Shown here piece after piece: positions 17,075 to 49,960 of a stretch of 64,000 nucleotides of DNA; position 1 is the stretch's first letter; the number at the start of each line of letters is the position of its first letter. The notes below the pieces were generated by a model, which saw only the letters and a list, made by a program, of their open reading frames with translations, ran no database searches and was not told the DNA's origin. The DNA comes from Henriciella sp. (GTDB taxonomy: Bacteria > Pseudomonadota > Alphaproteobacteria > Caulobacterales > Hyphomonadaceae): positions 411,648 to 475,647 of the forward strand of contig NZ_JAPYPG010000002.1 of NCBI RefSeq assembly GCF_029937755.1, given 5' to 3'. The translations under genes were made by a program, and so were the position numbers.

Positions 17075-18103
17075 ATGCAGACCGGTTCCGTCAGCCCCGG
17101 GAGCGGCCGCAGCAGTGCGCACACCTGGGCCCTCAAGCCGGTCTTCAGTGCAAGAACAGTGGGGCTGGTGATCCTCGTCCTTCTGGTCCTGGCCTATTCA
17201 GCTCATCGCATGCAGCTGGATGACCTGGTCGGACGCCTTGCGGGAATGGCCGTGAACGCCGCCACGTCCGAAAGCGGTGATGCGGCTGCGGATCCCGGAG
17301 AGGGCGTGCTCGAACGCATGTTCCCGCTCGCAATTGCCGAGCGAACCCCCATCGACCGGATCGCCGATTTCGACCCTGAAGACTTGCCCCTGTTCGCGCA
17401 CCTCGAAACCGCTCCCGAAGAGGTCAGCACGCTTGATCCCGATACGCTGCAGATGACCACGAGGACGGTTGAAAAGACTGTACTGGTCAAGCCCGCGGGC
17501 TATCTGGTCCTCGTCATCCGCAAGATCATCGAGACGATCGAGATAGCACTCTGGGCCAGCCTCATTGCCGTGGTCATGAGCCTGCCGCTCGCCTGGCTAT
17601 CGGCGCGGAATTACTCCCCCCACTGGCTCAGCTATGTGACGGCACGATCGGGCGTTTCCTTCCTGCGCGCAGTTCCCGAGCTCATCAGCGCGCTGTTCCT
17701 GGTCCTGGCGTTCGGCTTCGGCCCCATTGCCGGGATCCTCGCGCTTGCCCTTCACAGTGCCGGCTTCCTCGGGAAGTTCTATGCCGAGGACATCGAAGCC
17801 GCCGACAAGCGTCCGCAGGAGGCCATGCGGGCCATGGGGGCGGGAAGCTTCGCCACGCTCCGCCTCGCCGTCCTGCCGCAGGTCCTGCCGAGCTACGCTG
17901 CCCTGACGCTCTATGTATTGGACCGGAACGTACGTATGGCAACCGTGATAGGCCTTGTGGGCGCCGGCGGGATTGGCCAGGAATTAAAGGGCCGTTTCGA
18001 CATGTTCCAGTATGACCGCGTCGGCACGATCTTGCTGGTCATTTTCATCACCGTACTGCTGCTGGACCAGCTCGCCGCCCATGTACGCCGAAAGCTGCTA
18101 TGA
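17075..18103 (+). CDS. phnE: PhnE-type phosphonate ABC transporter permease
   Basis: A 342-aa inner-membrane permease. One hydrophobic segment lies near residues 28-46, then a periplasmic insert of about 100 residues, then several membrane spans. The EAA-like coupling loop is EAMRAMGAGSFATLRLAVLPQVLPSY, and the typical GLVGAGGIGQELKGRFDMFQYDRV motif follows. It pairs with PhnC. The insert is characteristic of PhnE proteins, though its length has not been compared. No C-P lyase or phosphonatase gene follows. Confidence 0.9.
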   Translation: MQTGSVSPGSGRSSAHTWALKPVFSARTVGLVILVLLVLAYSAHRMQLDDLVGRLAGMAVNAATSESGDAAADPGEGVLERMFPLAIAERTPIDRIADFDPEDLPLFAHLETAPEEVSTLDPDTLQMTTRTVEKTVLVKPAGYLVLVIRKIIETIEIALWASLIAVVMSLPLAWLSARNYSPHWLSYVTARSGVSFLRAVPELISALFLVLAFGFGPIAGILALALHSAGFLGKFYAEDIEAADKRPQEAMRAMGAGSFATLRLAVLPQVLPSYAALTLYVLDRNVRMATVIGLVGAGGIGQELKGRFDMFQYDRVGTILLVIFITVLLLDQLAAHVRRKLL

Positions 18104-18412: not shown

Positions 18413-18819
18413 TAAGCAAAGGCCCGCTTGGCTATAGCGCTTTCAGCCGTGAGCTCGGTTGCGAGCCAGAACCCCATCTGGTTCTTGTAGTAGGAACAGC
18501 GTTTTCCAGCCGGCTCGAAGAGGGGCGTTGTTTTGGAGGTCCCGTACCGACACGAATATCGTACCGGTGCCAGGAGTTGAAGCGGCTGCCCTGTCTTCGA
18601 TACACGTTCAGTGTCCGCATCCAGATAGCTCAGCTATCTCCTGAACTCGCGAATTTTGTCCAAAAGAAACCTCTCCCGTTCATGATCGGCGTTTGGCAGG
18701 AGAACCGCTTTCAACGGGCATGTCGTCGGCCGTCCCGACATGCCGGAATGGCAATTCGAACCACGGGAAGTCAAGGCTGTCCTAACCTGTATTGAAAGCA
18801 TTCAGCAGGCCCAACCGAC

Positions 18820-18833
18820 TGATCGGCATCAGA
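18820..18833. promoter_or_regulatory. Weak FNR/FixK-like site upstream of the MBL operon
   Basis: CTGAT-CGGC-ATCAG is a perfect palindrome matching TTGAT-N4-ATCAA at 8 of 10 positions. It lies 86 bp before the MBL start. It is weaker than the other five sites of the island. Confidence 0.35.
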
Positions 18834-18918: not shown

Positions 18919-20280
18919 ATGACGGACAGGATCACGTTTCTCGGCGGTGTCGGGACAGTCACCGGCTCCAAATACCTGGTCGAGACAGAGGGGAAGCGCA
19001 TCCTTGTCGATTGCGGCCTTTTCCAGGGTTTCAAGCAACTACGCCTGCGCAACTGGAAGCCGCTTCCGGTGGACCCCGCCGAGATTGATATCGTGTTGCT
19101 GACGCATGCGCATATCGACCATTCCGGCTACATCCCGCTTCTGGTTCGCAACGGCTTCAAAGGCGCCATTCACTGCACCGAACCGACAAAAGCCCTCTGT
19201 GAAATCTTGCTGCCAGATAGCGGCCACCTACAGGAACGGGAAGCCGACTACGCCAATCGCAAGGGGTTCTCACGGCATCACCCGGCCCTGCCGCTCTACA
19301 CGCAGGCCAATGCGGAAAAGTGCCTGAAGCAGTTCCGCACCCACGATTTTTCCGAAGCCATTCCCCTGTTTGACGGGGTACACGTCACATTCAAGGGAGC
19401 CGGACACATCCTTGGCGCAGCTTCCATCATCCTGAAGACACCGCACAACACCATCATCTTTTCGGGGGACCTCGGACGATACAACTCGCCGATCATGCAT
19501 GATCCGGCGGTGGTCCGGGACGCCGATTATCTGTTACTCGAGTCAACATACGGCGACGAGACACATCCAGGCATTAATCCCGAGGAGGCGCTGGAAGCCA
19601 TCCTCAACCGGACGCTGGGCCGCGGCGGAACTGTGGTTATTCCATCCTTTGCTGTCGGCCGCGCCCAAAGCCTGCTCTTCCACATCAGCCGCCTGCAGGC
19701 CAGTCAGCGTATACCTCTTGTCCCTGTTTACCTGGACAGTCCAATGGCCATCGATGCCACCGAGCTCTTCGTTCGGTTTGCAGAAGCACACAAGCTTAGC
19801 CAGGCCGAGGCTCGCGCCGCCTGCGGGGTGGCCGACTATGTTCACAATGGCGACGAGTCACGCAAACTCGATAATGATGACACTCCGAAGATCATCATTT
19901 CGGCCAGCGGCATGGCGACGGGGGGCCGTGTTCTTCATCATCTCAAGGCCTATGCCCCCGATCCGCGCAACACCATTCTCTTCGCGGGATACCAGGCGGG
20001 GGGAACACGCGGCGCGGCCATGCTGGCAGGTGCGACGCGTATAAAGATCCACGGCGCCTATCATGCGGTTAGAGCTGAAGTGCAGAACCTGCACATGCTC
20101 TCTGCGCACGCTGACGCGGACGAACTCATGCGCTGGGCCGGAAACTTCACACAAGCGCCCAGGGAAACCTTCCTCGTACATGGGGAGCCTGCCGCGTCGG
20201 ACGCCCTGCGCTTACGGATTGCAGAAGAGCTTGGCTGGCAGGTCACCGTGCCCGAACACGGCGAAACACGAGCGCTGTGA
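18919..20280 (+). CDS. MBL-fold beta-CASP ribonuclease-like protein
   Basis: A 453-aa metallo-beta-lactamase/beta-CASP protein. It has THAHIDHSG (zinc motif HxHxDH, near 62-68), ESTYGDETH, then the beta-CASP part with SAHADADELMRW and LVHGEP. This group includes CPSF73-like and YsgA/RNase-type RNA nucleases, so it probably processes RNA. ATG 18919 is preceded by AGGTGG; a GTG two codons earlier is an alternative. Its stop overlaps the phosphorylase start, forming an operon of RNA nuclease, nucleotide phosphorylase and PRPP synthetase. Confidence 0.88.
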   Translation: MTDRITFLGGVGTVTGSKYLVETEGKRILVDCGLFQGFKQLRLRNWKPLPVDPAEIDIVLLTHAHIDHSGYIPLLVRNGFKGAIHCTEPTKALCEILLPDSGHLQEREADYANRKGFSRHHPALPLYTQANAEKCLKQFRTHDFSEAIPLFDGVHVTFKGAGHILGAASIILKTPHNTIIFSGDLGRYNSPIMHDPAVVRDADYLLLESTYGDETHPGINPEEALEAILNRTLGRGGTVVIPSFAVGRAQSLLFHISRLQASQRIPLVPVYLDSPMAIDATELFVRFAEAHKLSQAEARAACGVADYVHNGDESRKLDNDDTPKIIISASGMATGGRVLHHLKAYAPDPRNTILFAGYQAGGTRGAAMLAGATRIKIHGAYHAVRAEVQNLHMLSAHADADELMRWAGNFTQAPRETFLVHGEPAASDALRLRIAEELGWQVTVPEHGETRAL

Positions 20281-21788
20281 TGAGGCCGGACTCTGCCAAT
20301 CGCCTGCGTGCTCGCCGGCTCGGCTTGCAGAGCCAGCACGAAGCTATTGCGCTGGTGCACACGGATTGCCCGGTATGCCGCTCGGAAGGCGTCAGCGCGC
20401 ACAGCCGTGTGAGGCTGACCCACGGCGAAACCTCGATTATTGCCACGCTTTACCAGATATCTTCGGATTGGCTCTCAAGGGACTCCATCGGTCTTTCGGA
20501 GTCTGCTTGGGCAGGGCTTGGTCTCGCTGATGGAGGCGAGGTTCACGTCACACACGCGCCTCCAATTGCCTCGCTCACGCATGTGCGCCACCGCATCTTC
20601 GACGGGGGGCTGAGCGAAATACAGGTACAATCCATCGTCGCCGACATCGTGAACGGGGCCTATTCAGACATCCACCTGGCCGCGTTCGTCACCGCCATCT
20701 CTGCGCGGCCGCTCTCCAAAAACGAAGTGGTGTTCCTCACCCGCGCCATGATCGAGACGGGCGAGAGAACACAGTGGAGCGACAGCCTGGTCGCCGACAA
20801 GCATTGCGTCGGCGGCCTGCCCGGCAACCGGACAACACCAATTGTGGTCGCGATCGTGGCGGAAACCGGGCTACTCATCCCGAAGACATCTTCCCGCGCC
20901 ATTACCTCGCCGGCGGGGACAGCGGATACGATGGAGGTCATGACCCGGGTCAATCTGGACCGGGAGGAGATGTGGCGCGTTGTCGAAGAGACAAATGGAT
21001 GCTTCATCTGGGGAGACGGAGCCGGATTTAGTCCTGCCGACACGGATATCATCCGGATCGAGCGGGCCCTGAACTTCGACTCTCCCGGTGTGATGATCGC
21101 CTCCGTCCTGTCGAAGAAAATTGCGGCCGGCTCGACCCATGTCGTCATTGACATTCCCGTCGGTCCGACGGCCAAAATCCGCACGACTGCAGAGGCTGAG
21201 ATGCTCTCGCAACTCTTTCTCAAGGTCGCTGCCGCCTTCAGCCTGGAACTGCGTCTCGAGATCACCGATGGTTCGCAACCAGTGGGCCGGGGTATGGGCC
21301 CGGCGCTCGAAGCACGCGACGTTCTGGCCGTGCTGCGAAATGACGAAAATGCCCCTGCGGATTTGCGCGAAAAATCGCTACAGCTGGCTGGTGCTATCCT
21401 TGAGCTTGCGGGAAAAGCCGCTTCGGGGCGAGGCCAGGCCCTTGCCCAGGACATCCTGACAGGCGGACGGGCATGGCAACGATTTCTGATGATCTGCAAG
21501 GCGCAAGGCGGATTTCTTGAACCCCCGTCGGCGCGCCATCAACGCCCTGTGTGTGCGCCTCGTACCGGGCGTATTGGTTCTATCGACAATCGCAAGCTCG
21601 CCCGCGCCGCCAAGCTCGCCGGCGCACCGGACGACAAGGCGGCCGGCCTGGACCTCAAGGTCCGCCTTGGCGACTCTGTTCGTCAGGGTGATCCCCTTTT
21701 TGTGCTTCATACCGAGACGATTGGCGAACTCACCTATGTGCTGGACTATGTAGAAGCCAATCCAGACATCATAGAGATCACGCATTGA
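20280..21788 (+). CDS. Thymidine phosphorylase family, long AMP-phosphorylase-like form
   Basis: A 502-aa protein, longer than the roughly 440-aa DeoA. The extra N-terminal domain of about 90 residues (RARRLGLQSQHEAIALVHTDCPVC) resembles that of archaeal-type AMP phosphorylases and the related bacterial putative thymidine phosphorylases. The catalytic core has KHCVGGLPGNRTTPIVVAIVAETG and the TSSRAITSPAGTADTMEVM phosphate-binding region. It could split nucleoside 5'-monophosphates or pyrimidine nucleosides with phosphate. It starts at ATG 20280 on the stop of the MBL gene and is followed at once by a PRPP synthetase. Confidence 0.85.
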   Translation: MRPDSANRLRARRLGLQSQHEAIALVHTDCPVCRSEGVSAHSRVRLTHGETSIIATLYQISSDWLSRDSIGLSESAWAGLGLADGGEVHVTHAPPIASLTHVRHRIFDGGLSEIQVQSIVADIVNGAYSDIHLAAFVTAISARPLSKNEVVFLTRAMIETGERTQWSDSLVADKHCVGGLPGNRTTPIVVAIVAETGLLIPKTSSRAITSPAGTADTMEVMTRVNLDREEMWRVVEETNGCFIWGDGAGFSPADTDIIRIERALNFDSPGVMIASVLSKKIAAGSTHVVIDIPVGPTAKIRTTAEAEMLSQLFLKVAAAFSLELRLEITDGSQPVGRGMGPALEARDVLAVLRNDENAPADLREKSLQLAGAILELAGKAASGRGQALAQDILTGGRAWQRFLMICKAQGGFLEPPSARHQRPVCAPRTGRIGSIDNRKLARAAKLAGAPDDKAAGLDLKVRLGDSVRQGDPLFVLHTETIGELTYVLDYVEANPDIIEITH

Positions 21789-22708
21789 CCACGACGCCAC
21801 TGCTCTACGCTCTCCCCGGTTCCAGTCATCTGGCTGCGCCGCTGCGGCAAGCCATGCAAGCCGCTTGTGGCGAAGTCGACGTCCATCGATTCCCGGACGG
21901 TGAGAGCTATGTACGCTTTGTGAGTGATCCCGCCGGACAGCATGTGATCCTGTTGTCCTGCCTGAATGAGCCCGATTCCAAACTCATCCCATTGCTGCTT
22001 GCCGCGCGGACAGCGAAAGATCTCAGGGCAGCTTCAGTCGGCCTCGTCGCGCCCTACATGCCCTACCTCCGTCAGGACACGGCGTTCCAGCCCGGGGAAG
22101 CCGTCAGTGCCCGCCATATCGGCGCACTCCTGTCGGAGACATTCTCCTGGGCCGTCACACTCGACCCCCACCTGCACCGCCTTTCCGCTCTGGATGAGGT
22201 CTTCTCCATCCCGGCAGGTGTTGCCAGCGCTGCCGGCTCAGTTTCCGGCTGGGTACGGAACAATGTCGAAAACCCGATTATCTGTGGCCCGGATTCGGAA
22301 AGCGAACAGTGGGCGAGCGCGATCGCGGCAGCCTGCCAGGCCCCTTATGCCGTGTTCCGGAAAACCCGGCATGACGCGCAATCGGTCGATATTCATATCC
22401 CGGACGGACTCGACCTTGCGGGGTATGTTCCCGTGATCGTGGATGACATCGTGTCGACGGGCGGAACGATGATATCGCTCGTCTCGCAATTGCACAGACG
22501 CAACGGAGCGGCGCCTGTATGCTGTATCGTTCACGGCCTCTTCCCGGAAATCACGGGCAACAGGATTTTGCACGCAGGCGCCCGCCAGTTGGTGACGACC
22601 AACTCCATCCGCCACAAGACCAACGCGATCGATATCTCCATGCCACTGGCAACCACATCGGCAGAGACGCTTGACCATTATCTGAGCGGCGACCGCAATT
22701 CCCGCTGA
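21785..22708 (+). CDS. prs: Ribose-phosphate pyrophosphokinase (PRPP synthetase) family
   Basis: A 307-aa phosphoribosyltransferase-fold protein with RFPDGESYVRF (about 37-47), LVAPYMPYLRQDTAF, DPHLHR and the PRPP-binding loop VIVDDIVSTGGTM (near 217-229). It probably makes PRPP, or works backwards from it. It starts at TTG 21785, overlapping the phosphorylase stop (TTGA), so the two are translationally coupled. It is more divergent than a housekeeping Prs and is probably an island-specific second copy, which the window cannot prove. Confidence 0.82.
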   Translation: MTTTPLLYALPGSSHLAAPLRQAMQAACGEVDVHRFPDGESYVRFVSDPAGQHVILLSCLNEPDSKLIPLLLAARTAKDLRAASVGLVAPYMPYLRQDTAFQPGEAVSARHIGALLSETFSWAVTLDPHLHRLSALDEVFSIPAGVASAAGSVSGWVRNNVENPIICGPDSESEQWASAIAAACQAPYAVFRKTRHDAQSVDIHIPDGLDLAGYVPVIVDDIVSTGGTMISLVSQLHRRNGAAPVCCIVHGLFPEITGNRILHAGARQLVTTNSIRHKTNAIDISMPLATTSAETLDHYLSGDRNSR

Positions 22709-22757: not shown

Positions 22758-22771
22758 TTGAGAGAGATCAA
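22758..22771. promoter_or_regulatory. FNR/FixK-type site upstream of lipoprotein gene
   Basis: TTGAG-AGAG-ATCAA matches TTGAT-N4-ATCAA at 9 of 10 positions. It lies 91 bp before the lipoprotein ATG at 22863. Confidence 0.55.
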
Positions 22772-22862
22772 GGAGCGGCACCGATACTGCCCGCAGACTG
22801 TTTTCAGGCTCGAAACAGGCAACCATTCCATGACGCGTAGAAGAGAACCAGGAACGAGCAGA

Positions 22863-23402
22863 ATGAGGTCATCCTTCCGTCAGGGGCTGCAGGGATTGGC
22901 GCTGGCCGCTTTCATGTCAGTGACGGCCTGTCAGACATTGGATCCCACGCCGTACCAGGCCCGCGCCGAGGGCAACGGATATAGCGAAACTGCGCTTGGC
23001 GAGGGAATTTACCGGGTCAGCTTCGAAGGCAACACGTCCACACCCTACCAGACGGTGGAAGACTACCTGCTCTACCGTGCCGCCGAATTGGCACGCGAAA
23101 ACGGAGCCCAGACGTTTACCATCCTTCGCAATGACCAACCGTCCACCTTCGTTGAAAGCCGGCCGGAGCACACAGTCTGCCACTACTCTCCCGCTGATTT
23201 TTCCGAGTTCGTCTTCTACCCCAATGAAACGGAGAGCAAGACAGTCGAGCCGCCGAAGACAAGTTACGAAGCCTATATCGACGTGAAGCTGGGTAAACCG
23301 CCAGCTGGTGCCGCCGATGCGCAGGTCTTCCGGACCGACGAAACGCTTCAATACCTTGCGCCATGCATATCCGGCGCTGGGCAGCAAGGAATCCCGGGAT
23401 GA
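22863..23402 (+). CDS. CC0125/CC1285-family lipoprotein
   Basis: A 179-aa lipoprotein. The start at 22863 has AGGA about 9 nt upstream and gives a compact signal (MRSSFRQGLQGLALAAFMSV) ending in the lipobox VTAC, with the lipidated Cys near residue 24. The mature part has GNGYSETALGEGIYRVSFEGN and TVEDYLLYRAAELARENG, which recall Caulobacter CC0125/CC1285 lipoproteins of unknown role. Its stop overlaps the ATG of the decayed gene after it. An FNR-type box precedes it. Confidence 0.8.
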   Translation: MRSSFRQGLQGLALAAFMSVTACQTLDPTPYQARAEGNGYSETALGEGIYRVSFEGNTSTPYQTVEDYLLYRAAELARENGAQTFTILRNDQPSTFVESRPEHTVCHYSPADFSEFVFYPNETESKTVEPPKTSYEAYIDVKLGKPPAGAADAQVFRTDETLQYLAPCISGAGQQGIPG

Positions 23403-23675
23403 AGTCCTATCCTCAGATGCAGATGGATCTCGAATCCGGTCTGGAAACCTATGCCGGTGACATGCCGAAACTGATGGAGGCCTTTACCGGTGTCCTTGAT
23501 GAGGCAACCGCTCCGCGAGGCTGGCGCCGGGCGAAGCGAGATTGCCGAAGTGCTGAGTGTGGCTGTTCTCATGGGCAGCGGCCCGGCCCTCGCCTATTCC
23601 GTCGCCGCGATGTAGGCCTTTGAGCAGTTCGAGACTGCCGATGCCATCCGCAAGTCCCCGTCGAAATCCCGCTAG
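23399..23675 (+). pseudogene. Decayed AhpD/carboxymuconolactone decarboxylase-like gene
   Basis: The start codon overlaps the lipoprotein stop (ATGA). The first about 38 residues (MKSYPQMQMDLESGL... then AFTGVLDEAT) match the beginning of short CMD-family proteins. A frame change follows, and another frame reads EIAEVLSVAVLMGSGPALAY, then a TAG, then AFEQFE, matching the C-terminal third. The middle part carrying the usual CxxC active site is missing. It is therefore an inactive remnant with an internal deletion, a frameshift and a stop. Confidence 0.7.
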
Positions 23676-23690
23676 CCCTTAACTAGCGGG
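23668..23690. terminator. Hairpin between convergent genes
   Basis: Eight-bp perfect arms CCCGCTAG / CTAGCGGG around a 7-nt loop, overlapping the stop of the decayed CMD gene and that of the convergent host-attachment gene. Probably a bidirectional transcript end, although no U-tract follows. Confidence 0.45.
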
Positions 23691-24128
23691 GGACCACTCA
23701 GAAATGGCCCTTTCCAAGTCGGGCAGCGGCTGTTTGAGCAAGTCGCGCGGAATTTCGGCCATGAGCGCCTTGCGGATTGTCTCGTCATACTGCGCGCGTA
23801 ATTCACCCAGAGTATCCGGATCAGCCACGATGACGAGATGGCGCATTTCGTCATCGTGCGCCATCCGACGAAGCCTTTTCATCAGATCCTTCCCGAAACT
23901 CTGCTCGGTTCGTTCGTGAAGGTCGGCCGCTTCTGGACTTCCGCCTCCCGGTCTGACCCCCGGAAAACGGCCGGGCTTTTCGCGCACCAGCGCTCGCGTC
24001 GGTGGAACGGGCTGGGCTGCGTGTAACAGATGGCGCAGATTGATAAGGTTCTCATCGCCGCGATTGACGAGGAGCAGGTATCGCCCGCCATCGGCCAGAG
24101 CCACGATTGTACCGGTTGGAAGTCTCAT
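23679..24128 (-). CDS. Host attachment family protein
   Basis: A 149-aa protein of the host-attachment (eRF1-like baeRF) family. It starts with MRLPTGTIVALADGGRYLLLVNRGDE, has an acidic and Arg-rich linker, and a second half with LVIVADPDTLGELRAQYDETIRKALMAEIPRDLLKQPLPDLE. Members were linked to plant attachment in Agrobacterium but are widespread, and their biochemical role is unclear. It diverges from the BON gene; one FNR-type box lies midway between them and could serve both. Confidence 0.82.
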   Translation of the reverse strand: MRLPTGTIVALADGGRYLLLVNRGDENLINLRHLLHAAQPVPPTRALVREKPGRFPGVRPGGGSPEAADLHERTEQSFGKDLMKRLRRMAHDDEMRHLVIVADPDTLGELRAQYDETIRKALMAEIPRDLLKQPLPDLERAISEWSPAS

Positions 24129-24187
24129 CTCATCTCCTGCGCAAAATCACCCGTTGCAGTTCCTAGACGCCGGCGCATGTGGGCGAG

Positions 24188-24201
24188 TTGACCCCGATCA
24201 A
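24188..24201. promoter_or_regulatory. FNR/FixK-type site between host-attachment and BON genes
   Basis: TTGAC-CCCG-ATCAA matches TTGAT-N4-ATCAA at 9 of 10 positions. It lies 59 bp from the minus-strand start at 24128 and 67 bp from the plus-strand start at 24269, so it could control both. Confidence 0.6.
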
Positions 24202-24268
24202 AGCGCAGTTCCTGTTGTCGCCTACCCTCACGACTGCGCCCTTTGCGGCGCTGCAATGGAGAGCAATC

Positions 24269-24916
24269 ATGAGTGACAAGACAATACGCGACAGGATCCT
24301 CGCCGAACTCGACTGGGATCCGAGCATCGAAGCGACGGATATTGGTGTCGCCATCGAGGATGGTGTTGTGACGCTGACCGGCCATGTGGCCACCTATGCC
24401 GAGAAGATGTCGGTGGAATCCGCTGTCAAACGGGTGAAAGGCGTCCGCGCCATCGCCCAGGAGGTCGAAATCCGCACGAGCCTTTCAAGCAAGATGACAG
24501 ACGACCAGATCGCCAAGCGGGCGGCCGACGTCATTGACTGGGACGTCACCATCCCGCGCGGCAAGGTCACCATCAAGGTCCAGAATGGCTATGTGACCCT
24601 GTCCGGTGAGGTCGACTGGCAATACCAGCGTCGGCACGCGGAAGAAGCCGTACGCACGCTGACGGGCGTACGCGGTATCAACAATACGATCGCGTTGAAA
24701 GCGCGCGTCTCGGTGCCCGACATCCAGAAACGTATCGAAAGCGCCCTGCAGCGCAATGCGGCCCTTGAAGCCAAAGCCATCAAGGTTTCCGTTGCCGACG
24801 GTCGGGTAACCCTTGAAGGCGAGGTCGATGACTGGACCGAACGCGAAGCAGTCGAGACAGCCGTCTGGGCTGCACCGGGCGTGACGACTGTCGTGGATCA
24901 CCTGCGTATCCATTAG
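24269..24916 (+). CDS. Triple BON-domain protein
   Basis: A 215-aa protein with three BON repeats (about 5-72, 78-147 and 148-214). Each shows the pattern IRDRILAELDWDP or equivalent, a GVVTLTGHV strand and a GVR/GVT turn. It has no signal peptide, so it is probably cytoplasmic, unlike periplasmic OsmY. BON domains bind membranes or phospholipid in some proteins and are typical of stress clusters. The start at 24269 has GGAGAG 6 nt upstream. It ends just before a perfect bidirectional terminator. Confidence 0.88.
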   Translation: MSDKTIRDRILAELDWDPSIEATDIGVAIEDGVVTLTGHVATYAEKMSVESAVKRVKGVRAIAQEVEIRTSLSSKMTDDQIAKRAADVIDWDVTIPRGKVTIKVQNGYVTLSGEVDWQYQRRHAEEAVRTLTGVRGINNTIALKARVSVPDIQKRIESALQRNAALEAKAIKVSVADGRVTLEGEVDDWTEREAVETAVWAAPGVTTVVDHLRIH

Positions 24917-24923
24917 AAAAAAG

Positions 24924-24946
24924 GACGGGCCTCGATGAGGCCCGTC
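24924..24946. terminator. Bidirectional Rho-independent terminator
   Basis: Perfect 10-bp stem GACGGGCCTC / GAGGCCCGTC with a GAT loop. The minus strand continues into a run of six T, so it ends the convergent phasin-like transcript strongly. On the plus strand a mixed CTTCGTTT tail follows the BON gene. Confidence 0.85.
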
Positions 24947-24969
24947 TTCGTTTCCGTCCGGACCTGGGT

Positions 24970-25356
24970 TCAGGCGGCCTTCTTGTGCTTGCCTTTTTTC
25001 GAGTGGCCGCCCTCGTCAGCCGTCCCACCCGCCTCTTCTTCGTGCTCCTGCTCTTCGTGGCGCGCATGCAGTGTGCTCAGCAAGCCGATGATCGCCGCGC
25101 TGGCCACAACAACCGAGGCAGCCGTCGCTACAGGATGCTCCTTGATTTCCTTCTGCGCGCCCTGGGCGATTTCCACCGATTGCTTTTTCGCCTCTTCCAA
25201 CAAGGTCGTAGCCGCCTGTATAAGCGCGGCAGATGCGGCCATCATCGTGTGCTGCACCTGCTCTCCCGTATGCTCTGTCAGCGCGCCGAGATTTTTCAGC
25301 GTCTCGGTGAGCGCATTGTGCACCACGGCGGTCGATTGATTATTTGCCTTCGTCAT
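24970..25356 (-). CDS. Phasin-like protein with membrane-anchor-like segment
   Basis: A 128-aa protein. Long amphipathic helices (NALTETLKNLGALTEHTGEQ and AALIQAATTLLEEAKKQ) are phasin-like. An alanine/valine-rich hydrophobic stretch follows (TAASVVVASAAIIGLLS, about 78-94), then a charged Glu/His/Lys tail. The hydrophobic stretch recalls ElaB/DUF883-type anchors rather than a classical phasin. It may coat PHA granules or bind the membrane. It diverges from the Crp/FNR gene, with an FNR-type box between them. Confidence 0.7.
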   Translation of the reverse strand: MTKANNQSTAVVHNALTETLKNLGALTEHTGEQVQHTMMAASAALIQAATTLLEEAKKQSVEIAQGAQKEIKEHPVATAASVVVASAAIIGLLSTLHARHEEQEHEEEAGGTADEGGHSKKGKHKKAA

Positions 25357-25415
25357 GTCCTTGGACCCTCCTCTGGTATCCGGAAGGAATCATGGCCGGG
25401 CAAAAGTGGACGGCC

Positions 25416-25429
25416 TTGAGAAAGATCAA
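25416..25429. promoter_or_regulatory. FNR/FixK-type site between phasin-like and Crp/FNR genes
   Basis: TTGAG-AAAG-ATCAA matches TTGAT-N4-ATCAA at 9 of 10 positions. It lies 59 bp from the minus-strand start (25356) and 100 bp from the regulator start (25530), allowing autoregulation. Confidence 0.6.
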
Positions 25430-25529
25430 GATTCGCGCACACTAGTATTAGCCGCGTAGTTCTACGTATTAACCAATTCGGCAGGAACCCACACATTCAT
25501 TAGGGGTGTGGACTGCAGGAGATAAAACC

Positions 25530-26294
25530 ATGCGTACAGAGGAGTTCCTGACTGAATTTTGCCTTTGCGAAGAGGCGGACAAACGCGAGGCGCGATACAG
25601 ACCGCATCAATCTCTATATCTGGAAGGCGACCCCGCACGATTAGTGTTCCAGATCACGGCGGGAGTCGTCATCGTTTTCCGGCTGCTGGCCGATGGCCGT
25701 CGACAAATTCACCGGTTCGCCACAAGGGGAGACCTGCTCGCGCTGGATTTCGCAGACCTATATTCTCACAATGCAGAGGCGATCACCGAAGTGTCCGCTG
25801 AAGTCTATGACCGGCCATGGTTCGACCGCACCTTCCAGGACCATCCTGATTTTCGCCGGGGGGTTTTCCGGCATCTGACCGACACGCTTACGGCTTCTCA
25901 GGAGCAGGCCGTGATGCTGGGCAGGAAATCGGCCATGGAGCGCACAGCCTCTTTCATCTGTTTCCTCCTACAAAAAGCCCCTGCTGACGTCAGGCATTCC
26001 TACATCGTCATCCGCATGAGCCGGTATGATATCGCCGACTATCTCGGCCTGACCTTTGAAACGGTCAGCCGCATGCTCCATCGGCTCAAGAAACTGGGAG
26101 TCATCGATCTTCCAAAACCCGACCGGTTCAAGGTGCTCAACTGGCCAGTGCTGGCGCAGCTGGCCGGTGAGGCGGAGACAGCTGGCAGGTACCTGCCTTG
26201 TGCCATGGCGTTGAAGCGGGTGGAACCGGCTGCTTTCACGGCTGGGCCGCTGCCTGCAGAATTTTCCCAACAACGGTCTCAACCTTACAGCTAG
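25530..26294 (+). CDS. Crp/FNR (FixK-like) transcriptional regulator
   Basis: A 254-aa Crp/FNR protein with an N-terminal cyclic-nucleotide-binding-fold sensor and a C-terminal winged helix. Its recognition helix region, DIADYLGLTFETVSRMLHRLKKLG, has the E-x-x-S-R pattern of FNR/FixK proteins that read TTGAT half sites. Only two nearby N-terminal Cys occur (FCLCEE), so a four-Cys [4Fe-4S] cluster is unlikely and FixK-type control is more plausible. ATG 25530 has AGGAG 8 nt upstream. The last residues run over an antisense decayed gene, so the natural C-terminus may have been lengthened. Confidence 0.9.
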   Translation: MRTEEFLTEFCLCEEADKREARYRPHQSLYLEGDPARLVFQITAGVVIVFRLLADGRRQIHRFATRGDLLALDFADLYSHNAEAITEVSAEVYDRPWFDRTFQDHPDFRRGVFRHLTDTLTASQEQAVMLGRKSAMERTASFICFLLQKAPADVRHSYIVIRMSRYDIADYLGLTFETVSRMLHRLKKLGVIDLPKPDRFKVLNWPVLAQLAGEAETAGRYLPCAMALKRVEPAAFTAGPLPAEFSQQRSQPYS

Positions 26295-26600
26295 CGTCAA
26301 GGACTTGCCATTCGTCACCGAGGTTACACGGCTCGACCTGTTCGATCGTCACACTGATATCGGCGTCGGAGGCATCCTCCCCGCGTCCCGATCTCCGGGC
26401 CAGGCGCATGGCAGGACGCGCCTATCACACGGGTCAGCGTCTCAAGGGCGGAACTGACGCCGAATGTAGCATCGGCAATGATGCTGACGCCAGCCGATGC
26501 GGCTTTCGCTGCATGCTCACCCAGCTTACGATATGTCTGCGCGCGTCTTTCTGGCGTAAGGCCCCTCTCCGCCCGTACCGTTTCTAGGCCCGTCGCCACC
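26236..26600 (-). pseudogene. Remnant of a zeta-toxin/kinase-like AAA ATPase gene
   Basis: On the minus strand one frame reads LTPERRAQTYRKLGEHAA then AGVSIIADATF, and another reads RLARRSGRGEDASDADIS and runs on to a stop at 26236. Both pieces match the C-terminal AAA kinase domain of aminoglycoside-phosphotransferase-linked ATPases (DATF, then R...DASDAD). A frame change separates them and the N-terminal part with the P-loop is absent. The remnant overlaps the 3' end of the Crp/FNR gene by 59 bp on the opposite strand. Confidence 0.6.
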
Positions 26601-26644
26601 TGGTGTTCTGCGCTCAGGCTCGCTCGGGCTGGACAGGTTCGCTT

Positions 26645-26658
26645 TTGATCGCCGTCAA
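26645..26658. promoter_or_regulatory. FNR/FixK-type site upstream of hsp20
   Basis: TTGAT-CGCC-GTCAA matches TTGAT-N4-ATCAA at 9 of 10 positions. It lies 52 bp before the Hsp20 start. Confidence 0.6.
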
Positions 26659-26710
26659 GGCCCGGGATGGGATGCAGGAATAGGCAAAAGGACATCAGAA
26701 ACCCCAAGCC

Positions 26711-27217
26711 ATGGAGACGAACGTGCCAAATATCGAGAAATCGCGCCCCACCGCCAGCCGCGTACCGGTTGCCGGATATCCCGGCGAGAGCCCATTTGCG
26801 CGGCTTCGCTCGGAGATGGATCAGGTCTTCAACCAGTATTTTGGCCCGATGCTCCGGAGCAATGGCGACGGCCTACTGTCTGAAGCCTTTGGCAGTCTCG
26901 ATCTGAGCGAGACGGACAATGCGATAGATGTCACCCTGGACGTGCCGGGCGTGGACCCGCAGAACGTCGATATCAAGCTCGTGGGAGACTTACTGCAGAT
27001 AACCGGACACCGGGAAGAAGAGACCACGACCGAAGAAAAGAACTTTCACCGTATGGAACGGTCCTATGGCTCATTCCATCGGCAGGTCACGCTGCCCTGC
27101 GAGGTCAGCGCCGACAAGGTTGAAGCAGAACTCGAGAACGGTGTCCTGAAGATCAGGCTGCCGAAATCAGCCGAAACCAAGCAGAAGACCCGGAAGATCA
27201 AGGTCAAGACGCGTTGA
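26711..27217 (+). CDS. Hsp20/alpha-crystallin small heat-shock protein
   Basis: A 168-aa small heat-shock protein. The alpha-crystallin domain (about 58-150) runs from DLSETDNAIDVTLDVPGVDPQNVDIKL through LLQITGHREEE to the conserved ELENGVLKIRLPK. A basic tail follows. It holds unfolding proteins in the cytoplasm. ATG 26711 is used, but GTG 26723 has a better-spaced GGAG and could be the true start. An FNR-type site rather than a visible heat-shock promoter precedes it, pointing to low-oxygen or stationary-phase induction. Confidence 0.92.
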   Translation: METNVPNIEKSRPTASRVPVAGYPGESPFARLRSEMDQVFNQYFGPMLRSNGDGLLSEAFGSLDLSETDNAIDVTLDVPGVDPQNVDIKLVGDLLQITGHREEETTTEEKNFHRMERSYGSFHRQVTLPCEVSADKVEAELENGVLKIRLPKSAETKQKTRKIKVKTR

Positions 27218-27488
27218 GGCTTTCAGCGCCTCCCGGCGTGACGGCCTTCTGCACACTATTGCGCTTGCAAGCCAGACCGGAAGCGATGTTCCTCGCGCCA
27301 TCCGTGGTCATGAGGCACTCTGGATACGCGGACGTTTCCATGAGGCCGAAACAGCGCATCCGCCTGAGCGGTTTGATTTGCATCATATCGGTCGCAGGAG
27401 TTCAGATGTTCTGATGAAGCTGGGCAAGTCGGCAGCGGTGCCGGACTTCACAAGGCTTCATGGCAAGCCGGACTAGAAGGAGACCACC
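27218..27488. other. Gap between hsp20 and phasin with an unassigned open frame
   Basis: A plus-strand frame without a clear start runs from the end of hsp20 to a TAG near 27477 (ending VLMKLGKSAAVPDFTRLHGKPD in part). It looks protein-like and may be the tail of a lost gene, but I could not assign it. The FNR-type site at 27373 lies within it. Confidence 0.35.
27373..27386. promoter_or_regulatory. FNR/FixK-type site upstream of phasin-phaC operon
   Basis: TTGAT-TTGC-ATCAT matches TTGAT-N4-ATCAA at 9 of 10 positions. It lies 102 bp before the phasin start. Confidence 0.55.
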
Positions 27489-27845
27489 ATGGACGACACG
27501 CAGACCAAGACAACGACGAAGAAAGACAGACCCGACAGTAGCAAAGTGGAAACCCGCTCGTCGAATGCTGACACCCGCACGGCGCCGCTGCCAGGCTTCG
27601 ACACGATGCAGGCCTTCCGGCAAGGCGCGCTGAACCTCGAGCACTGGATATCGACCAGCCAGGATCTGACACGCTTCGCGTCATACAGGATTCGCAAGAA
27701 CCTCGAGACGATCGACGCTATTGCAAAGTGCCGGACCTCCGAGGATTTTATCTCTGCAGTGGCCAGGGCCGCCAGTGATACCGTTCACGATTATGCGAAT
27801 GAGTATGACCGCGTCCTGGCCATCAATCTCGCTTCCGCCCAATAA
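27489..27845 (+). CDS. Phasin family protein
   Basis: A 118-aa phasin-like protein. A hydrophilic Thr/Lys/Asp-rich leader (1-30) precedes helices with FDTMQAFRQGALNLEHWIS and CRTSEDFISAVARAASDTVHDYANEYDRVL, the usual phasin pattern. It probably coats PHA granules. GAAGGAGA-type sequence just upstream supports the start at 27489. The PHA synthase begins 3 nt after its stop, so the two form an operon. Confidence 0.82.
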   Translation: MDDTQTKTTTKKDRPDSSKVETRSSNADTRTAPLPGFDTMQAFRQGALNLEHWISTSQDLTRFASYRIRKNLETIDAIAKCRTSEDFISAVARAASDTVHDYANEYDRVLAINLASAQ

Positions 27846-27848
27846 GTC

Positions 27849-29678
27849 ATGCCCGATACGGCCCGGTTCGAAAGCACGCCCAGGAACGTCGCGACAGACG
27901 TCGAACGGTCGGTCACGAGCCCGCCACATTCAGCCTCATCCTCCTGTGCCTCCTCGGGGGACAGCATGGCCACCGGCTTCGCCTGGATCGACCGCCTCTT
28001 TCGCGGCGCGGCGACCCGATATAGCGCCGGAGCCCCGGTCCTCACTGGCCTTGCTGCCGTGCATGACTGGTCGGTTCATCTCGCCCAGTCACCGGGTCGG
28101 CGCATGGACCTTGCCAACAAGGCCGCCGACGCCGCGCTGCAGCTGCAAGCTTATGCAGCGTGGCGGTTCACCGGATACGTCCCAGACCAGGCACCCGCCG
28201 GCGCCCGGTTCCAGGATCCCGCCTGGACAGCCTTCCCGTTCGACATTCTCGCTCAGGGCTGGCTCGGCATGCGGGACTGGTGGCATGACGCTACCTCGCC
28301 GTCTCGGGGCCTCAATACCTGGTCCAACGAACAGACTGCCTTCTGGGCGGACCTGATGCTGGACGCTCTCTCGCCTGCGAACTTTGCGCTGCTCAATCCC
28401 GAAGTCATTCACCGAACGCTCGAACAGTCCGGGACTAATCTGCAGAGAGGCTGGCAGAACTGGCTGGATGATCTGCGCCGCGAAATCGGCGGTAGGCCGC
28501 AGCCGCCGAGCGAGGGATTCGTCGTCGGCAAGGACCTCGCCGTCACGCCGGGTAAAATTGTTTATCAGAACGATCTCATCGAACTCATCCAGTACGTCCC
28601 GCAGACCGAAACTGTCCAGCGCGAACCGCTGCTGATCGTCCCGGCCTGGATCATGAAATACTACATCCTGGATCTGTCGCCGCACAACTCGCTGGTCCGG
28701 TGGCTGGTCGGCGAAGGGTTCCAGGTCTTCATGGTTTCCTGGAAGAACCCCCGTCCCGAAGATGGTCACTTCCGGCTGAACGACTATCTCGATCTGGGCA
28801 TCCGCGACGCGCTGGATGCGGTCAGGACCATCACGAAGGAGCCACGAATCCATGCCTGCGGCTACTGCCTCGGGGGAACGCTGCTGTCGATCCAGGCGGC
28901 GCGGATGGCCCGCGACGGCGATGACAGTCTGGCAACGGTCTCCCTCTTGGCTGCCCAGACCGATTTCAGCGAGCCGGGCGACATCCGCCTGTTCGTCGAC
29001 GAAGCGCAGGTGACCTTCCTTGAAGACATGATGGAGCTCGAAGGCATCATGCCTGCCCGCTTCATGAGTGACGGGTTCAAGATGCTGCGCTCGGAAACGC
29101 AGGTGTGGGATACCGCGGTCAGGCGATACCTGCTCGGCGAGGCCCCCAAGACCTTCGATCTGCTCGCCTGGAATGAGGACGCCACCCGCATGCCCTGCGG
29201 CATGATGCGCGACTATCTGCGCGGTCTATATCTGGAAAACCAGCTCGCCCTCAGCCGCTACAGGGTCGACGGCCGGGTGGTCTCCATCTCGGATATCCGC
29301 GCACCTGTCCTGGCCGTCGGAACAACACGCGATCACGTCGCCCCCTGGAAGTCAGTCTTCAAGATCACCCGCCTCGCCCGCACAGACGTCACCTTCATCC
29401 TTGCAGACGGAGGCCACAATGCCGGTATCGTTACCGAACCCGGCCATCCGCGCCGCGACCACCTGGTCGGCCATCGTATCGCCCATGAACATTATCTCAG
29501 TCCTGAAGCGTGGCAGGCGGCCGCTGCTCATCGCCAGGGATCCTGGTGGACAAGTTGGCGCGACTGGCTCATCGAGCGGAGCGGCGAACCGCGCAAGGCT
29601 CCGGCTCGTCTTGGCTATGCACGGGCAGGCTATCCGGTCCTGCGGGATGCTCCGGGCACTTATGTTCTGGACCGGTAG
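27849..29678 (+). CDS. phaC: Poly(3-hydroxyalkanoate) synthase, class I-like
   Basis: A 609-aa PHA synthase. The alpha/beta core has the lipase-box-like GYCLGG with nucleophile Cys near residue 340, an Asp in TTRDHVAPW and the catalytic His in DGGHNAGI. The conserved WNEDATRMP and PAWIMKYYILDLSPHNS segments are also present. It polymerises hydroxyacyl-CoA into storage granules, giving a reductant sink when oxygen is short. It lies 3 nt after the phasin gene and 2 nt before the ATPase start. No phaA/phaB genes are nearby. Confidence 0.95.
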   Translation: MPDTARFESTPRNVATDVERSVTSPPHSASSSCASSGDSMATGFAWIDRLFRGAATRYSAGAPVLTGLAAVHDWSVHLAQSPGRRMDLANKAADAALQLQAYAAWRFTGYVPDQAPAGARFQDPAWTAFPFDILAQGWLGMRDWWHDATSPSRGLNTWSNEQTAFWADLMLDALSPANFALLNPEVIHRTLEQSGTNLQRGWQNWLDDLRREIGGRPQPPSEGFVVGKDLAVTPGKIVYQNDLIELIQYVPQTETVQREPLLIVPAWIMKYYILDLSPHNSLVRWLVGEGFQVFMVSWKNPRPEDGHFRLNDYLDLGIRDALDAVRTITKEPRIHACGYCLGGTLLSIQAARMARDGDDSLATVSLLAAQTDFSEPGDIRLFVDEAQVTFLEDMMELEGIMPARFMSDGFKMLRSETQVWDTAVRRYLLGEAPKTFDLLAWNEDATRMPCGMMRDYLRGLYLENQLALSRYRVDGRVVSISDIRAPVLAVGTTRDHVAPWKSVFKITRLARTDVTFILADGGHNAGIVTEPGHPRRDHLVGHRIAHEHYLSPEAWQAAAAHRQGSWWTSWRDWLIERSGEPRKAPARLGYARAGYPVLRDAPGTYVLDR

Positions 29679-29680
29679 TA

Positions 29681-32377
29681 TTGCAGCCCGCCCCGATCTC
29701 TGACTGGCATGCTCTGGAAGCCGCCGACGTCGCTTCGCGGCTAAACACCAGCATAGCGGACGGACTGTCGCTTGCCGAGGCAGGACAGCGGCTTTCAGAC
29801 TGCGGTCCGAACGAAATCTCGGCGGCGGCGAGCCGCTCTCTGATCATGCTGGTGCTGCGCCAGTTCACAAGCGCGCTGGTCCTCATCCTGCTGCTGGCCG
29901 CAGGCCTGTCACTCCTTGTCGGCGAGGTGATCGATGCAGCGGCGATCCTCGTCATCATCGCTTTCAATGCCATTCTGGGTGTCATCCAGGAATGGCAGGC
30001 GCAAAATGCGATCGAGGGCCTGCATAAGATGCTCGCGCCGGTCTGCGAAGTGGTCCGGGGCGGGAAGCAGCAGCAGATATCCTCCGCCAAACTCGTCCCT
30101 GGAGACGTTGTGCTGCTGAGGGCGGGTGACAGAGTGCCGGCAGATCTGAGAATTGCCGAGGCCAGCGACCTGCGAGCAGACGAATCCGCACTGACCGGCG
30201 AATCCATCCCCGTCGCGAAACAGGTCGCGCCCGTAGCCGCTGGCGCCGCCCTATATGAACGGGCATCCCTCCTTTCTTCGGGCACACTCATTTCGGCCGG
30301 TCATGGCCGAGGAGTAGTGGTCGCGACCGGCCGCTCAAGCGAACTTGGCCGGATCGCGGAACTCACCGCCCAGGCCGATCCGGGGGCAACACCCTTGCAG
30401 CGTAAGATCACCCGGCTCGCTGCGCAGCTTGGCGTCGGCGCGATTGCCGCAGCGATCTTCGTCGGCACCATGGGCTGGTCGAGCGGCTGGCCGCTTGCCC
30501 AGTCCCTGATGGCGGGCATTTCGGTCGCCGTCGCCATGGTTCCGGAAGGCCTTCCCGCCGCCATTACCGTGACGCTCGCGCTCGGGGCCCGCGCGCTCGC
30601 CCGGCGCAAGGCCCTTCTGCGCCTGTTACAGGCTGCCGAGACGCTCGGTGCGACAACCACAATCTGCACCGACAAGACGGGCACGCTGACCCGGAATGAC
30701 ATGGTGGCCCGCCATATGTGGATACCCGGAGCAGACGTCATTGTAGAAACTGAAGACAAGCTGGGCCCGGCGCGTTTCATCCTCGACGGGCAACCGGTGC
30801 ACGCGCTGGACCAACCCGGTCTGCAGGCCATGCTGCACTCAGCAGCAGCCTGCAACAATGCCCGTCTGGACAGCGAGGCAGACACCACGGATTTCAAGGG
30901 CCAGCCGACCGAGACAGCCCTTCTCGCTCTCGCCCGCCAGGCCGGACTGGACGTGACCGCACACCGCGCCCGCTGCTTCGAGGCGGCTTTCACGTCCGAA
31001 CGCAAGCGGATGTCCGTCGTGCTGGCAAGCGAACCTCGGCTGCTTCACACAAAGGGCGCCAGCGAGATGGTCCTCCCGCTCTGCTCCAGCATTCTGGTCG
31101 ATGGCCGGCGTGAGGCCCTGTCGGAAGATCACCGGCGGGCGGTGACCGCGGCCGCTGCCCGCCTGTCGCAGGAAGGATTGCGCATCATCGCCGTCGCACG
31201 CCGCAGCCTGACAGACGAAACCTCTCTCTCCGCCGACGATGCCGAGCGCGAGCTTGAATTCCTGGGCCTCATCGGCCTCTACGACCCGCCGCGCTCTGAA
31301 ACCAGAGCAGCCATCGCCGCCACCCGCACCGCCGGCATCAAGGTTATCATGATCACCGGGGATTCAGCCGAAACAGCGCGCGCGATCGCCTCGCAGATCG
31401 GCCTGCCCGAGGCGCCCGCCATTGAAGGCACGACCATGGCTGGCATGAGCGACCGAGAGCTCTCACGTCTCCTGGTCGATGGTGCCGTCTTTGCGCGCAC
31501 CTCCCCGGAGGACAAGATCCGTATTGTCTCCCTCCTCCAGGGTGCCGGCGAGGTGGTTGCGATGACAGGCGATGGCGCCAATGATGCGCCTGCCCTCAAC
31601 CAGGCGGACATCGGCATCGCCATGGGACTTCGTGGCACCGATGCTGCCCGGGACGCCTCCGACCTGGTTCTCGCCGATGATAACTTCGCGACCATCGTCA
31701 CCGCCGTCGAACAGGGGCGGCGCCAGCGTGACAATATCCGCAAATTCGTGCGCTATCTGCTGGCGTCAAACTTGGGTGAACTGGTTGCTATCATTGCCAA
31801 TCTCCTGATTGGCGGCCCACTCATCTTGCTGCCGATCCAGATCCTCTGGATGAACCTCGTCACCGACGGGCCGACGGCTCTGGCGCTCAGCACCGACGCG
31901 GCCGGACGCGATGTCATGAAACGGCTGCCCGAACCGCGCGAAACCCCGCTCATCGACCTGAATGCGCTGACCCACATGATCGCGGTCGCGCTCACCATCG
32001 GCGCCGCGGCTGTAGCCGCGTTTCACTGGCGCCTCATGATGAACCCAACCGCCGAGGCAGAAGCGCGGACCCTGGCTCTCACGGTCATAGTGATCGTACA
32101 GAAGGTCAACGTCTTCTCATTCCGTGCGCTGTCGCAGCCCATCTGGTCGCTCACCCCATGGAGCAACAAATGGCTGCTTGCCGCCGTCGCAGGCACGCTG
32201 CTGGTGCACCTTGCGGCGATCTATTCTCCATTCCTGCAAACCTTCCTCCACACGGCCGCCCTGTCGGGAGAGGACTGGCTCGTCATCGCAATCGCGTCTG
32301 TCGCGCTCCTTGCCATGTCGGAACTATCGAAAAGCATTCTTGGGACCAGACGTCTGGCTGAGGTAAAGGCCGTATAG
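29681..32377 (+). CDS. P2-type cation-transporting P-type ATPase
   Basis: An 898-aa P-type ATPase from TTG 29681, the first plausible start after the phaC stop; further upstream the frame lies within phaC. It has an N-terminal cation-ATPase domain, TGES in the actuator domain, the transmembrane PEGLPAAI motif typical of P2 (Ca2+/Mn2+ or Na+/K+-like) pumps, CTDKTGTLT with phosphorylated Asp331, KGASE, and TGDGANDAPAL near 630. Six C-terminal membrane spans follow. The ion cannot be fixed, but Ca2+ is the default for this group. Such pumps recur in low-oxygen clusters. Confidence 0.9.
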   Translation: MQPAPISDWHALEAADVASRLNTSIADGLSLAEAGQRLSDCGPNEISAAASRSLIMLVLRQFTSALVLILLLAAGLSLLVGEVIDAAAILVIIAFNAILGVIQEWQAQNAIEGLHKMLAPVCEVVRGGKQQQISSAKLVPGDVVLLRAGDRVPADLRIAEASDLRADESALTGESIPVAKQVAPVAAGAALYERASLLSSGTLISAGHGRGVVVATGRSSELGRIAELTAQADPGATPLQRKITRLAAQLGVGAIAAAIFVGTMGWSSGWPLAQSLMAGISVAVAMVPEGLPAAITVTLALGARALARRKALLRLLQAAETLGATTTICTDKTGTLTRNDMVARHMWIPGADVIVETEDKLGPARFILDGQPVHALDQPGLQAMLHSAAACNNARLDSEADTTDFKGQPTETALLALARQAGLDVTAHRARCFEAAFTSERKRMSVVLASEPRLLHTKGASEMVLPLCSSILVDGRREALSEDHRRAVTAAAARLSQEGLRIIAVARRSLTDETSLSADDAERELEFLGLIGLYDPPRSETRAAIAATRTAGIKVIMITGDSAETARAIASQIGLPEAPAIEGTTMAGMSDRELSRLLVDGAVFARTSPEDKIRIVSLLQGAGEVVAMTGDGANDAPALNQADIGIAMGLRGTDAARDASDLVLADDNFATIVTAVEQGRRQRDNIRKFVRYLLASNLGELVAIIANLLIGGPLILLPIQILWMNLVTDGPTALALSTDAAGRDVMKRLPEPRETPLIDLNALTHMIAVALTIGAAAVAAFHWRLMMNPTAEAEARTLALTVIVIVQKVNVFSFRALSQPIWSLTPWSNKWLLAAVAGTLLVHLAAIYSPFLQTFLHTAALSGEDWLVIAIASVALLAMSELSKSILGTRRLAEVKAV

Positions 32378-35847: not shown

Positions 35848-36285
35848 CGCATATTCATCGTCAGGCTTGTTACCAAACAGGCTAACGACGAAAGCGCGGG
35901 ATGCCTATTCGAGGTGTTCAAGGTTCGAACCCCGAATGTCGCGCCTAACCCGAAGCAGCACAGATCGTCGGGTTTTTTCCGCTTGCAAATCAACGGCTTA
36001 TATAGTTTAGTTTGGCGCGAGTGACGTGCCACATTCCATATTTTTTATCCATATTTTTCAATCACTTACGGGAGGTGTAATCGATTCTTGGTCCTCAGTT
36101 CGGTCTGATTTTGGTCCACAGTTTTGTAGACCGCTTGAGTTCGACGCCGCTCACCGGCACCGATAGCCATAGTTAACGCGGATTGTACTCCCTGCCAAAT
36201 CAAGCTTGATCTATAGAACTAGATTTCACCGCTAACTACAATGCACAGAGCGCCGAAACTCAACACATCATACTAAAGTCAACAC
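35848..36285. other. Intergenic region with structured plus-strand element
   Basis: About 440 bp without a supported gene. The first 130 bp hold the hairpin and terminator listed at 35894-35978. The remainder is AT-rich with no clear signal, apart from two similar CATATTTTT words near 36040. It separates the AbiE cargo from the catabolic cluster. Confidence 0.5.
35894..35978 (+). ncRNA. Possible small structured RNA ending in a terminator
   Basis: From 35907 to 35937 the sequence folds into an 11-bp stem with two single-base bulges and a 7-nt loop, closed further out by GCGCG (35894) with CGCGC (35940). A terminator-like AACCCGA / TCGGGTT hairpin (35947-35953 and 35968-35974) with a T run follows. 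No plus-strand protein gene ends here, so a small RNA or a decayed RNA gene is possible. The GGTTCGAAC word recalls a tRNA T-loop, but the T-stem does not pair. Confidence 0.3.
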
Positions 36286-37908: not shown

Positions 37909-37961
37909 TTGTTGTCTCCCAGAGTGACAGATTTGTACTGGTTTAGCGAATTGTCAGAATA

Positions 37962-40127: not shown

Positions 40128-40285
40128 TTTGTCCTCCCGGACACCCCAGTGGATGAGGTTCTGGATTTTTTCTCATACCAAGCAAGATTGCACTGGAACG
40201 GCGAAGTTTCTCAAGCCCCGCGCAACGCCAATGTTCCGTCATTTTGTGCCAGCGACAAAGCCTGGGACACCTACTTGCAACGGAT

Positions 40286-41392: not shown

Positions 41393-41398
41393 GGGACG

Positions 41399-43809: not shown

Positions 43810-43836
43810 GACTCTCTCCCCATCTACAGATGGCCG

Positions 43837-45889: not shown

Positions 45890-45942
45890 GCTTTATCGGT
45901 TCATGACGGTTTGTCCAATTTTTGAACAGGATTGTACACGCT

Positions 45943-49951: not shown

Positions 49952-49960
49952 ACAAGACGA

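Follow-up and report, generated by a model that had tools for sequence, protein, structure and literature searches.

Among the systems nearest to the one discussed here are two FixLJ-FixK cascades. In Bradyrhizobium diazoefficiens, according to the available part of PMC9104804, FixK2 activates a TP-PRPP-MBL operon (box at -74), hspC2 (-86), a host-attachment protein (-69), phaC2 (-81) and a target of PNPOx family name (box at -69), in vitro transcription being given there as validation for hspC2 and phaC2; the same gene families are microoxia-induced in Bradyrhizobium, as given in the corresponding part of PMC6515984. Here, we analyzed a 64-kb stretch of Henriciella sp. DNA (contig NZ_JAPYPG010000002.1, positions 411648-475647; "the window", whose numbering is used throughout), in which a gene for a FixK-type Crp/Fnr regulator lies among stress and polyhydroxybutyrate (PHB) genes. 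The cluster resembles the Bradyrhizobium cascade in its FixK-type activator, its 14-bp box, the box distances and the target families (TP-PRPP-MBL, Hsp20, host-attachment, PhaC and PNPOx), the family match being one of family name and not of alignment. It differs in that the Bradyrhizobium targets are scattered over the genome, whereas here most candidates surround the regulator; in that fixNOQP (cco) is a target there, whereas no FixK-type site with at most one mismatch was found here in the segments examined near ccoN and fixLJ; and in that Ser stands where FixK2 has the redox-sensitive Cys183.

In the Caulobacterales cascade, as covered by the accessible portion of PMC4999443, FixLJ, cco and FixK similarly occur together in related alphaproteobacteria and FixJ sites lie upstream of fixK, but the targets described there are confined to redox genes, including cco and fixK, as opposed to the stress and PHB genes seen here. 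The lxa locus of Burkholderia cenocepacia, as described in the available part of PMC6127331, is a low-oxygen-induced cluster that also contains Hsp20/alpha-crystallin and BON proteins, but this betaproteobacterial locus comprises 50 genes, six of them for universal stress proteins, a family with no match among the window proteins scanned. A literature search, with most subscription journals outside its coverage, returned no paper on Henriciella with FixK and, in titles and abstracts, none on such a cluster.

We consider it reasonably likely, from the sequence evidence, that the cluster is a local low-oxygen FixK regulon, wired from FixL through FixJ to FixK and on to the stress and PHB genes, and the FixK regulon itself is probably real and functional. 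Directly observed are the FixK-type sites, their excess and their conserved occurrence alongside the regulator, as well as FixJ-type boxes in the relatives and genes for FixL and FixJ in the same genome.

FixK-type sites and their conservation

The motif scored was TTGAT-N4-ATCAA (14 bp, 10 scored positions; consensus TTGATNNNNATCAA). A previous, sequence-only reading of the window had claimed five intergenic sites matching at 9 of 10 positions, each 52-102 bp from a start codon, and our recount, with distances counted on the sequence and downstream ATG starts used, bears this out: the sites start at 22758, 24188, 25416, 26645 and 27373 (Table 1), each with one mismatch to TTGATNNNNATCAA. The weaker palindrome (8 of 10) that the same reading had placed at 18820 is present with two mismatches, but it starts at 18819. 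A sixth one-mismatch site in the window, at 8551, lies beyond the cluster. If the longest possible starts were taken instead, two of the sites (22758 and 24188) would come to lie within reading frames, and the site at 26645 is overlapped by a reverse-strand open reading frame (ORF) of 127 amino acids that has no Pfam match.

The whole genome (3.78 Mb; G000) has 94 sites with at most one mismatch, so that 0.115 would be expected in a span of 4.6 kb, as compared with the five seen; five sites fell inside such a span anywhere in 0.045% of 20,000 random placements. For the class TTGA-N5-ATCAA, four of the 24 sites in the genome are in the cluster, which was reached in 1 of 40,000 placements. In the gaps between the module genes (1,277 bp), the enrichment is 16.6-fold (P ~1.6e-5), if one assumes that the other 89 sites are all intergenic and that intergenic DNA makes up 10% of the genome; under this assumption, the earlier expectation of sites commoner than the intergenic background holds. 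What is more, TTGAT ranks first among all 1,024 palindromic 5-base halves in these gaps, with 5 matches against 2 for the next.

Conservation was followed in 105 genomes of the family. Some match to the regulator exists in 74 of them, but at the identity of at least 40% required for counting a homologue in only 14. The baeRF12 gene is present in 51 genomes, including all 14 regulator-bearing ones, where the two genes always share a contig and lie at most ~24 kb apart, and its co-occurrence with the regulator (14/14, against 37/91 genomes without it) gives P 1.4e-5, a value that ignores kinship and is therefore too small, as P values generally are here because the genomes are related. The baeRF12 promoter was examined at the loci of 30 of the 51 genomes, the site being sought 20-150 bp before the start. 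All 13 regulator-bearing genomes (13 of 13) have it, always at 49-69 bp, as opposed to 1 of 17 regulator-free ones; for three of these 17, no start codon could be assigned to the start of the gene. For the bCASP operon, the corresponding numbers are 5 of 10 and 0 of 20; the window and the genomes G005 and G010 are among those lacking a site, which is present in five more distant regulator-bearing genomes.

Of 53 upstream regions of module genes taken from the 15 regulator loci, 19 contain the motif, while each of 19 permuted halves occurs in at most one. As expected of a FixK regulon, sites of the form TTGA-N6-TCAA precede the candidate targets. By gene, the relatives have it at baeRF12 (9/9), BON (2/2, at 67-68 bp) and bCASP (2/2), and lack it at the operon-internal TP (0/2) and PRPS (0/1). 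Matches in the relatives are most frequent at a spacer of 4, with 33 against at most 13 at any other spacer. When 11 loci of relatives are taken over their whole length, TTGAT comes only 15th at up to one mismatch (33 matches), behind GC-rich halves, but it leads the exact palindromes with 13 matches against 4 for the next. Finally, a screen for module genes (threshold 1e-6) in the best 80 of more than 588 named loci with a member of the regulator family showed a module gene other than the ATPase in 7, one of these being G024 again.

The earlier reading had described the regulon as island-wide. It does take in five intergenic regions of the cluster, but the site of the bCASP operon is weak, and a site also lies 63 bp upstream of a PNPOx-family gene on contig 1, which makes at least one target off the island likely. 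As a separate observation, a second cassette with phosphoketolase followed by bCASP, TP and PRPS genes lies at L228 (G000 contig 31), 1581-8022, and adjoins an EF-hand gene that has a perfect TTGAT-N4-ATCAA at 1522, 78 bp before it; this cassette is near-identical in G005 and G010, beside what by eye is an IS3-like ORF pair.

The regulator and its proposed input

Three Pfam profiles (Crp, HTH_Crp_2 and cNMP_binding) match the regulator above cut-off. The closest named profile, NCBIfam Caulobacter FixK, scores 131.2 bits, below its cut-off of 300, so the protein is, as judged by these profiles, FixK-like while standing outside that equivalog. With a profile built from 15 sequences, its nearest solved protein is FixK2 (4i2o, E 1.3e-45), and the recognition helix E-T-V-S-R is invariant in all 15, in agreement with the earlier assignment to a FixK type with an E-x-x-S-R helix. 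Measured by FNR cysteine spacing, the regulator has no FNR-type N-terminal Fe-S cysteine set; its cysteines are at 11, 13, 144 and alignment column 224, and those at 11 and 13 are not common to the relatives. The position of FixK2 Cys183 is Ser in the window protein and in 12 relatives, Thr in one and Lys in one, with Cys in 0 of 15. In Bradyrhizobium FixK2, oxidation of Cys183 inactivates the protein, and the C183S form is active and oxidation-resistant (PMC9104804, available in part). With Ser in the place of the redox-sensitive residue, the regulator is therefore expected to be active once made and to be controlled at its own transcription.

It is at this level that a FixJ-type box comes in. 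The published FixJ sites are GTAGTTTCCC and TAAGTAATTTCCC (PMC4999443, in its available part). In the upstream regions of 14 fixK genes, the mean best match is 7.93 of 10, as compared with 6.67 after shuffling (maximum 7.29 in 500 shuffles); none of 400 permuted motifs did as well, and matches of at least 8 occur in 9 of 14 fixK regions as opposed to 1 of 56 control regions. The window box, GTAGTTCTACGTATTAACCA, agrees with that of G010 at 17 of 20 positions, as compared by eye.

Both candidate upstream partners are encoded in the same genome. FixL is a kinase with a PAS domain that matches FixL 1dp6 at 5.6e-39 and has the heme-pocket His and Arg in place, and FixJ matches 5xso at 7.2e-50. Their genes adjoin ccoN (731.7 bits, cut-off 583) at L263/L265 (G000 contig 16, 215531-219411), and the region between contains TACGTA elements and no FixK-type site. 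Kinases as strong (E <=4e-44) occur in 27 of the 29 genomes of the genus, the heme pocket having been checked in G000 only. Another kinase compared as a FixL candidate (L089) turned out to be something other than FixL. Independently of this, HELNQP-box histidine kinases adjoin a fixK homologue at L064, L065, L066 and L068, the last of which also has a response regulator.

From these elements we infer binding, activation, a phosphorelay and a response to oxygen. Namely, low oxygen would be sensed by the heme-PAS protein FixL, which would phosphorylate FixJ; FixJ would then act at the box upstream of the fixK gene of the cluster, and the FixK product would bind the TTGAT-N4-ATCAA sites in a class II position and recruit RNA polymerase. 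The promoters served would be those of baeRF12/BON, the phasin-like gene, the lipoprotein, Hsp20 and phasin-PhaC-ATPase, together with at least one gene elsewhere. The regulator had also been proposed to control its own gene from the site at 25416. This did not find support, as a site lies within 250 bp upstream of fixK in only 2 of 15 relatives, both times more than 180 bp away; because the fixK genes of the relatives are without a close site and have a FixJ-type box there instead, the site at 25416 is more probably that of the divergently oriented phasin-like gene than that of fixK.

More tentatively, one may read the arrangement as an accessory FixK, absent from most relatives, that has been plugged, along with stress and PHB genes of its own, into the core FixLJ-cco system through a FixJ box, such that the sensor would belong to the host, the output would be exchangeable and the redox switch would have been dropped. 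The principle of wiring to the core oxygen sensor is known, while the present instance would be new and unusual.

Evidence against the regulon and rival explanations

Several results weigh against a FixLJ-driven regulon. When two mismatches are allowed, the window as a whole shows no clear excess of sites (28 seen against 21.6 expected, with as many in 12 of 100 shuffles), and across the entire 18-33 kb region the half-site GCGGC (11) is ahead of TTGAT (5, shared second place); the signal lies in the intergenic gaps, and the excess vanishes across longer stretches. A sigma-70 scan gave no promoter at the five sites, and in a promoter search the -10 signal 21-22 bp past the site was a weak peak, taken without a significance test and with one of its 21 rows shifted by one base. 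G001 has the baeRF12 site yet no detected regulator. Placed on a tree of baeRF12, the labels require 5 and 6 changes and leave just 2 supported pairs that are independent; these agree in nearly every pairing, a number too small for significance. The window's FixJ-type box matches at 7 of 10 positions, close to the mean of the shuffles (6.7), and both G028 homologues reach 6. As for the claim that all these units form one low-oxygen module, the motif frequencies in the relatives, the baeRF12 promoters and the FixK2 precedent speak in its favor, but conservation is thin at the lipoprotein (1/6), Hsp20 (1/5), phasin (1/6), PhaC (1/4) and ATPase (0/1) genes.

Among the other explanations, the one that survives best, although we regard it as unlikely, is a self-contained, autoregulated FixK that would itself sense oxygen or redox state and move with its genes as a unit. 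While a site does lie 100 bp upstream of the regulator gene, the rarity and distance of such sites in the relatives argue against autoregulation, and the regulator has neither the FNR-type cysteine set nor an equivalent of Cys183. The idea of a mobile unit draws on the patchy presence of the regulator, on its linkage to baeRF12 in 14 of 14 genomes and their co-occurrence, on conjugation-type genes at 53-63 kb (beyond AbiE genes to the right of the module) and on the edge of synteny: similarity to G011 and G005 stops at 18078-18097 and the variable region therefore begins there. However, the two nearest relatives, G005 and G010, carry the bCASP operon at one locus and the regulator cluster at another; the module has native composition (4-mer correlation 0.93-0.96, against 0.89-0.95 for core pieces); no integrase was found in the window region, nor any tRNA in the window, attachment repeats not having been searched; and no near-identical plasmid copy was found, the best of the plasmid matches listed covering no more than 4% of the module. 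The earlier suggestion that the module moves with its own regulator is thus not upheld, and a set of re-assorted pieces describes the cluster better than a unit of demonstrated mobility.

Some further features of this neighborhood were noted. Past the same breakpoint, G011 (L242, 13263-16652) has another insertion in this position, in which a tRNA-Leu and an ORF resembling an integrase were seen by eye. The segment 52754-63340 of the window encodes a coupling protein, a DUF3363/relaxase-like protein, an S26 peptidase, and ParB-like, ArdA and MerR proteins, as in a conjugative element, with no integrase seen, and 36001-52500 is a catabolic-looking block of lower GC content (0.54) and deviant 4-mer correlation (0.80).

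We find it very improbable that the sites are bound mainly by another Crp/Fnr protein, with the local FixK playing a minor role. Crp/Fnr sites overlap in general, and the genome does encode two more solid Crp/Fnr-type proteins (C14:14627 and C18:439355), but both have H-V-S-R helices, leaving the cluster regulator as the only one of the three with E-x-x-S-R, and the sites track the presence of the FixK homologue; on helix sequence, we judged these two unlikely binders. Chance or a compositional artefact is barely credible: many of the 94 genomic sites do appear intragenic (15 of 24 in one class), albeit according to a crude gene caller whose preference for the longest start also misplaced the module sites and which was dropped as a test, and the clustering, the motif rank, the permuted motifs and the conservation all contradict it.

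Genes of the cluster and biological meaning

Table 1. Genes and sequence elements of the cluster (window coordinates)
Feature	Position	Strand	Remarks
Weak palindrome CTGATCGGCATCAG	18819..18832	.	two mismatches; 86 bp upstream of bCASP operon
MBL-fold beta-CASP/RMMBL nuclease (bCASP)	18919..20280	+	profile match
Thymidine/AMP phosphorylase family protein (TP)	20277..21788	+	profile match
Ribose-phosphate pyrophosphokinase (PRPS)	21785..22708	+	profile match
FixK-type site	22758..22771	.	one mismatch; 91 bp upstream of lipoprotein gene
CC0125/CC1285-family lipoprotein	22863..23402	+	103 bits, cut-off 40
baeRF family 12 / 'host attachment' protein	23679..24128	-	profile match
FixK-type site	24188..24201	.	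one mismatch; divergent promoter, baeRF12 at 59 bp, BON at 67 bp
Three-BON-domain protein	24269..24916	+	profile match
Small phasin-like protein	24970..25356	-	no Pfam or NCBIfam match; name from the sequence-only reading
FixK-type site	25416..25429	.	one mismatch; between phasin-like gene (59 bp) and regulator gene (100 bp)
FixJ-type box GTAGTTCTACGTATTAACCA	25456..25475	+	upstream of regulator gene; 7/10 to published GTAGTTTCCC
FixK-type Crp/Fnr regulator	25530..26294	+	Crp, HTH_Crp_2, cNMP_binding
FixK-type site	26645..26658	.	one mismatch; hsp20 start 52 bp away
Hsp20 small heat-shock protein	26711..27217	+	profile match
FixK-type site	27373..27386	.	one mismatch; 102 bp upstream of phasin-phaC-ATPase genes
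Phasin-like protein before phaC	27489..27845	+	no Pfam or NCBIfam match; position ahead of phaC, likewise in L054
PHB synthase PhaC	27849..29678	+	profile match
P-type cation ATPase	29660..32377	+	profile match

Two intervals of the cluster look decayed. A frameshifted gene remnant at 23400-23675 is intact as a 110-amino-acid ORF at L054:1968-2300, which we take to be AhpD/CMD-like, and the interval between fixK and hsp20 (26295-26710) holds a decayed reverse-strand frame, presumably kinase-like, to which the 127-amino-acid ORF mentioned above belongs.

If the proposed low-oxygen FixK regulon is true, it would represent a compact FixLJ-FixK regulon outside the nitrogen fixers, conserved at its core in the baeRF12/BON promoter, and would be an example of accessory survival genes placed under a core oxygen sensor. 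As such, it would help explain why low-oxygen responses diverge between close relatives, and it would also provide a set of promoters for probing the low-oxygen roles of the widespread baeRF12, BON and beta-CASP-phosphorylase-PRPP genes.

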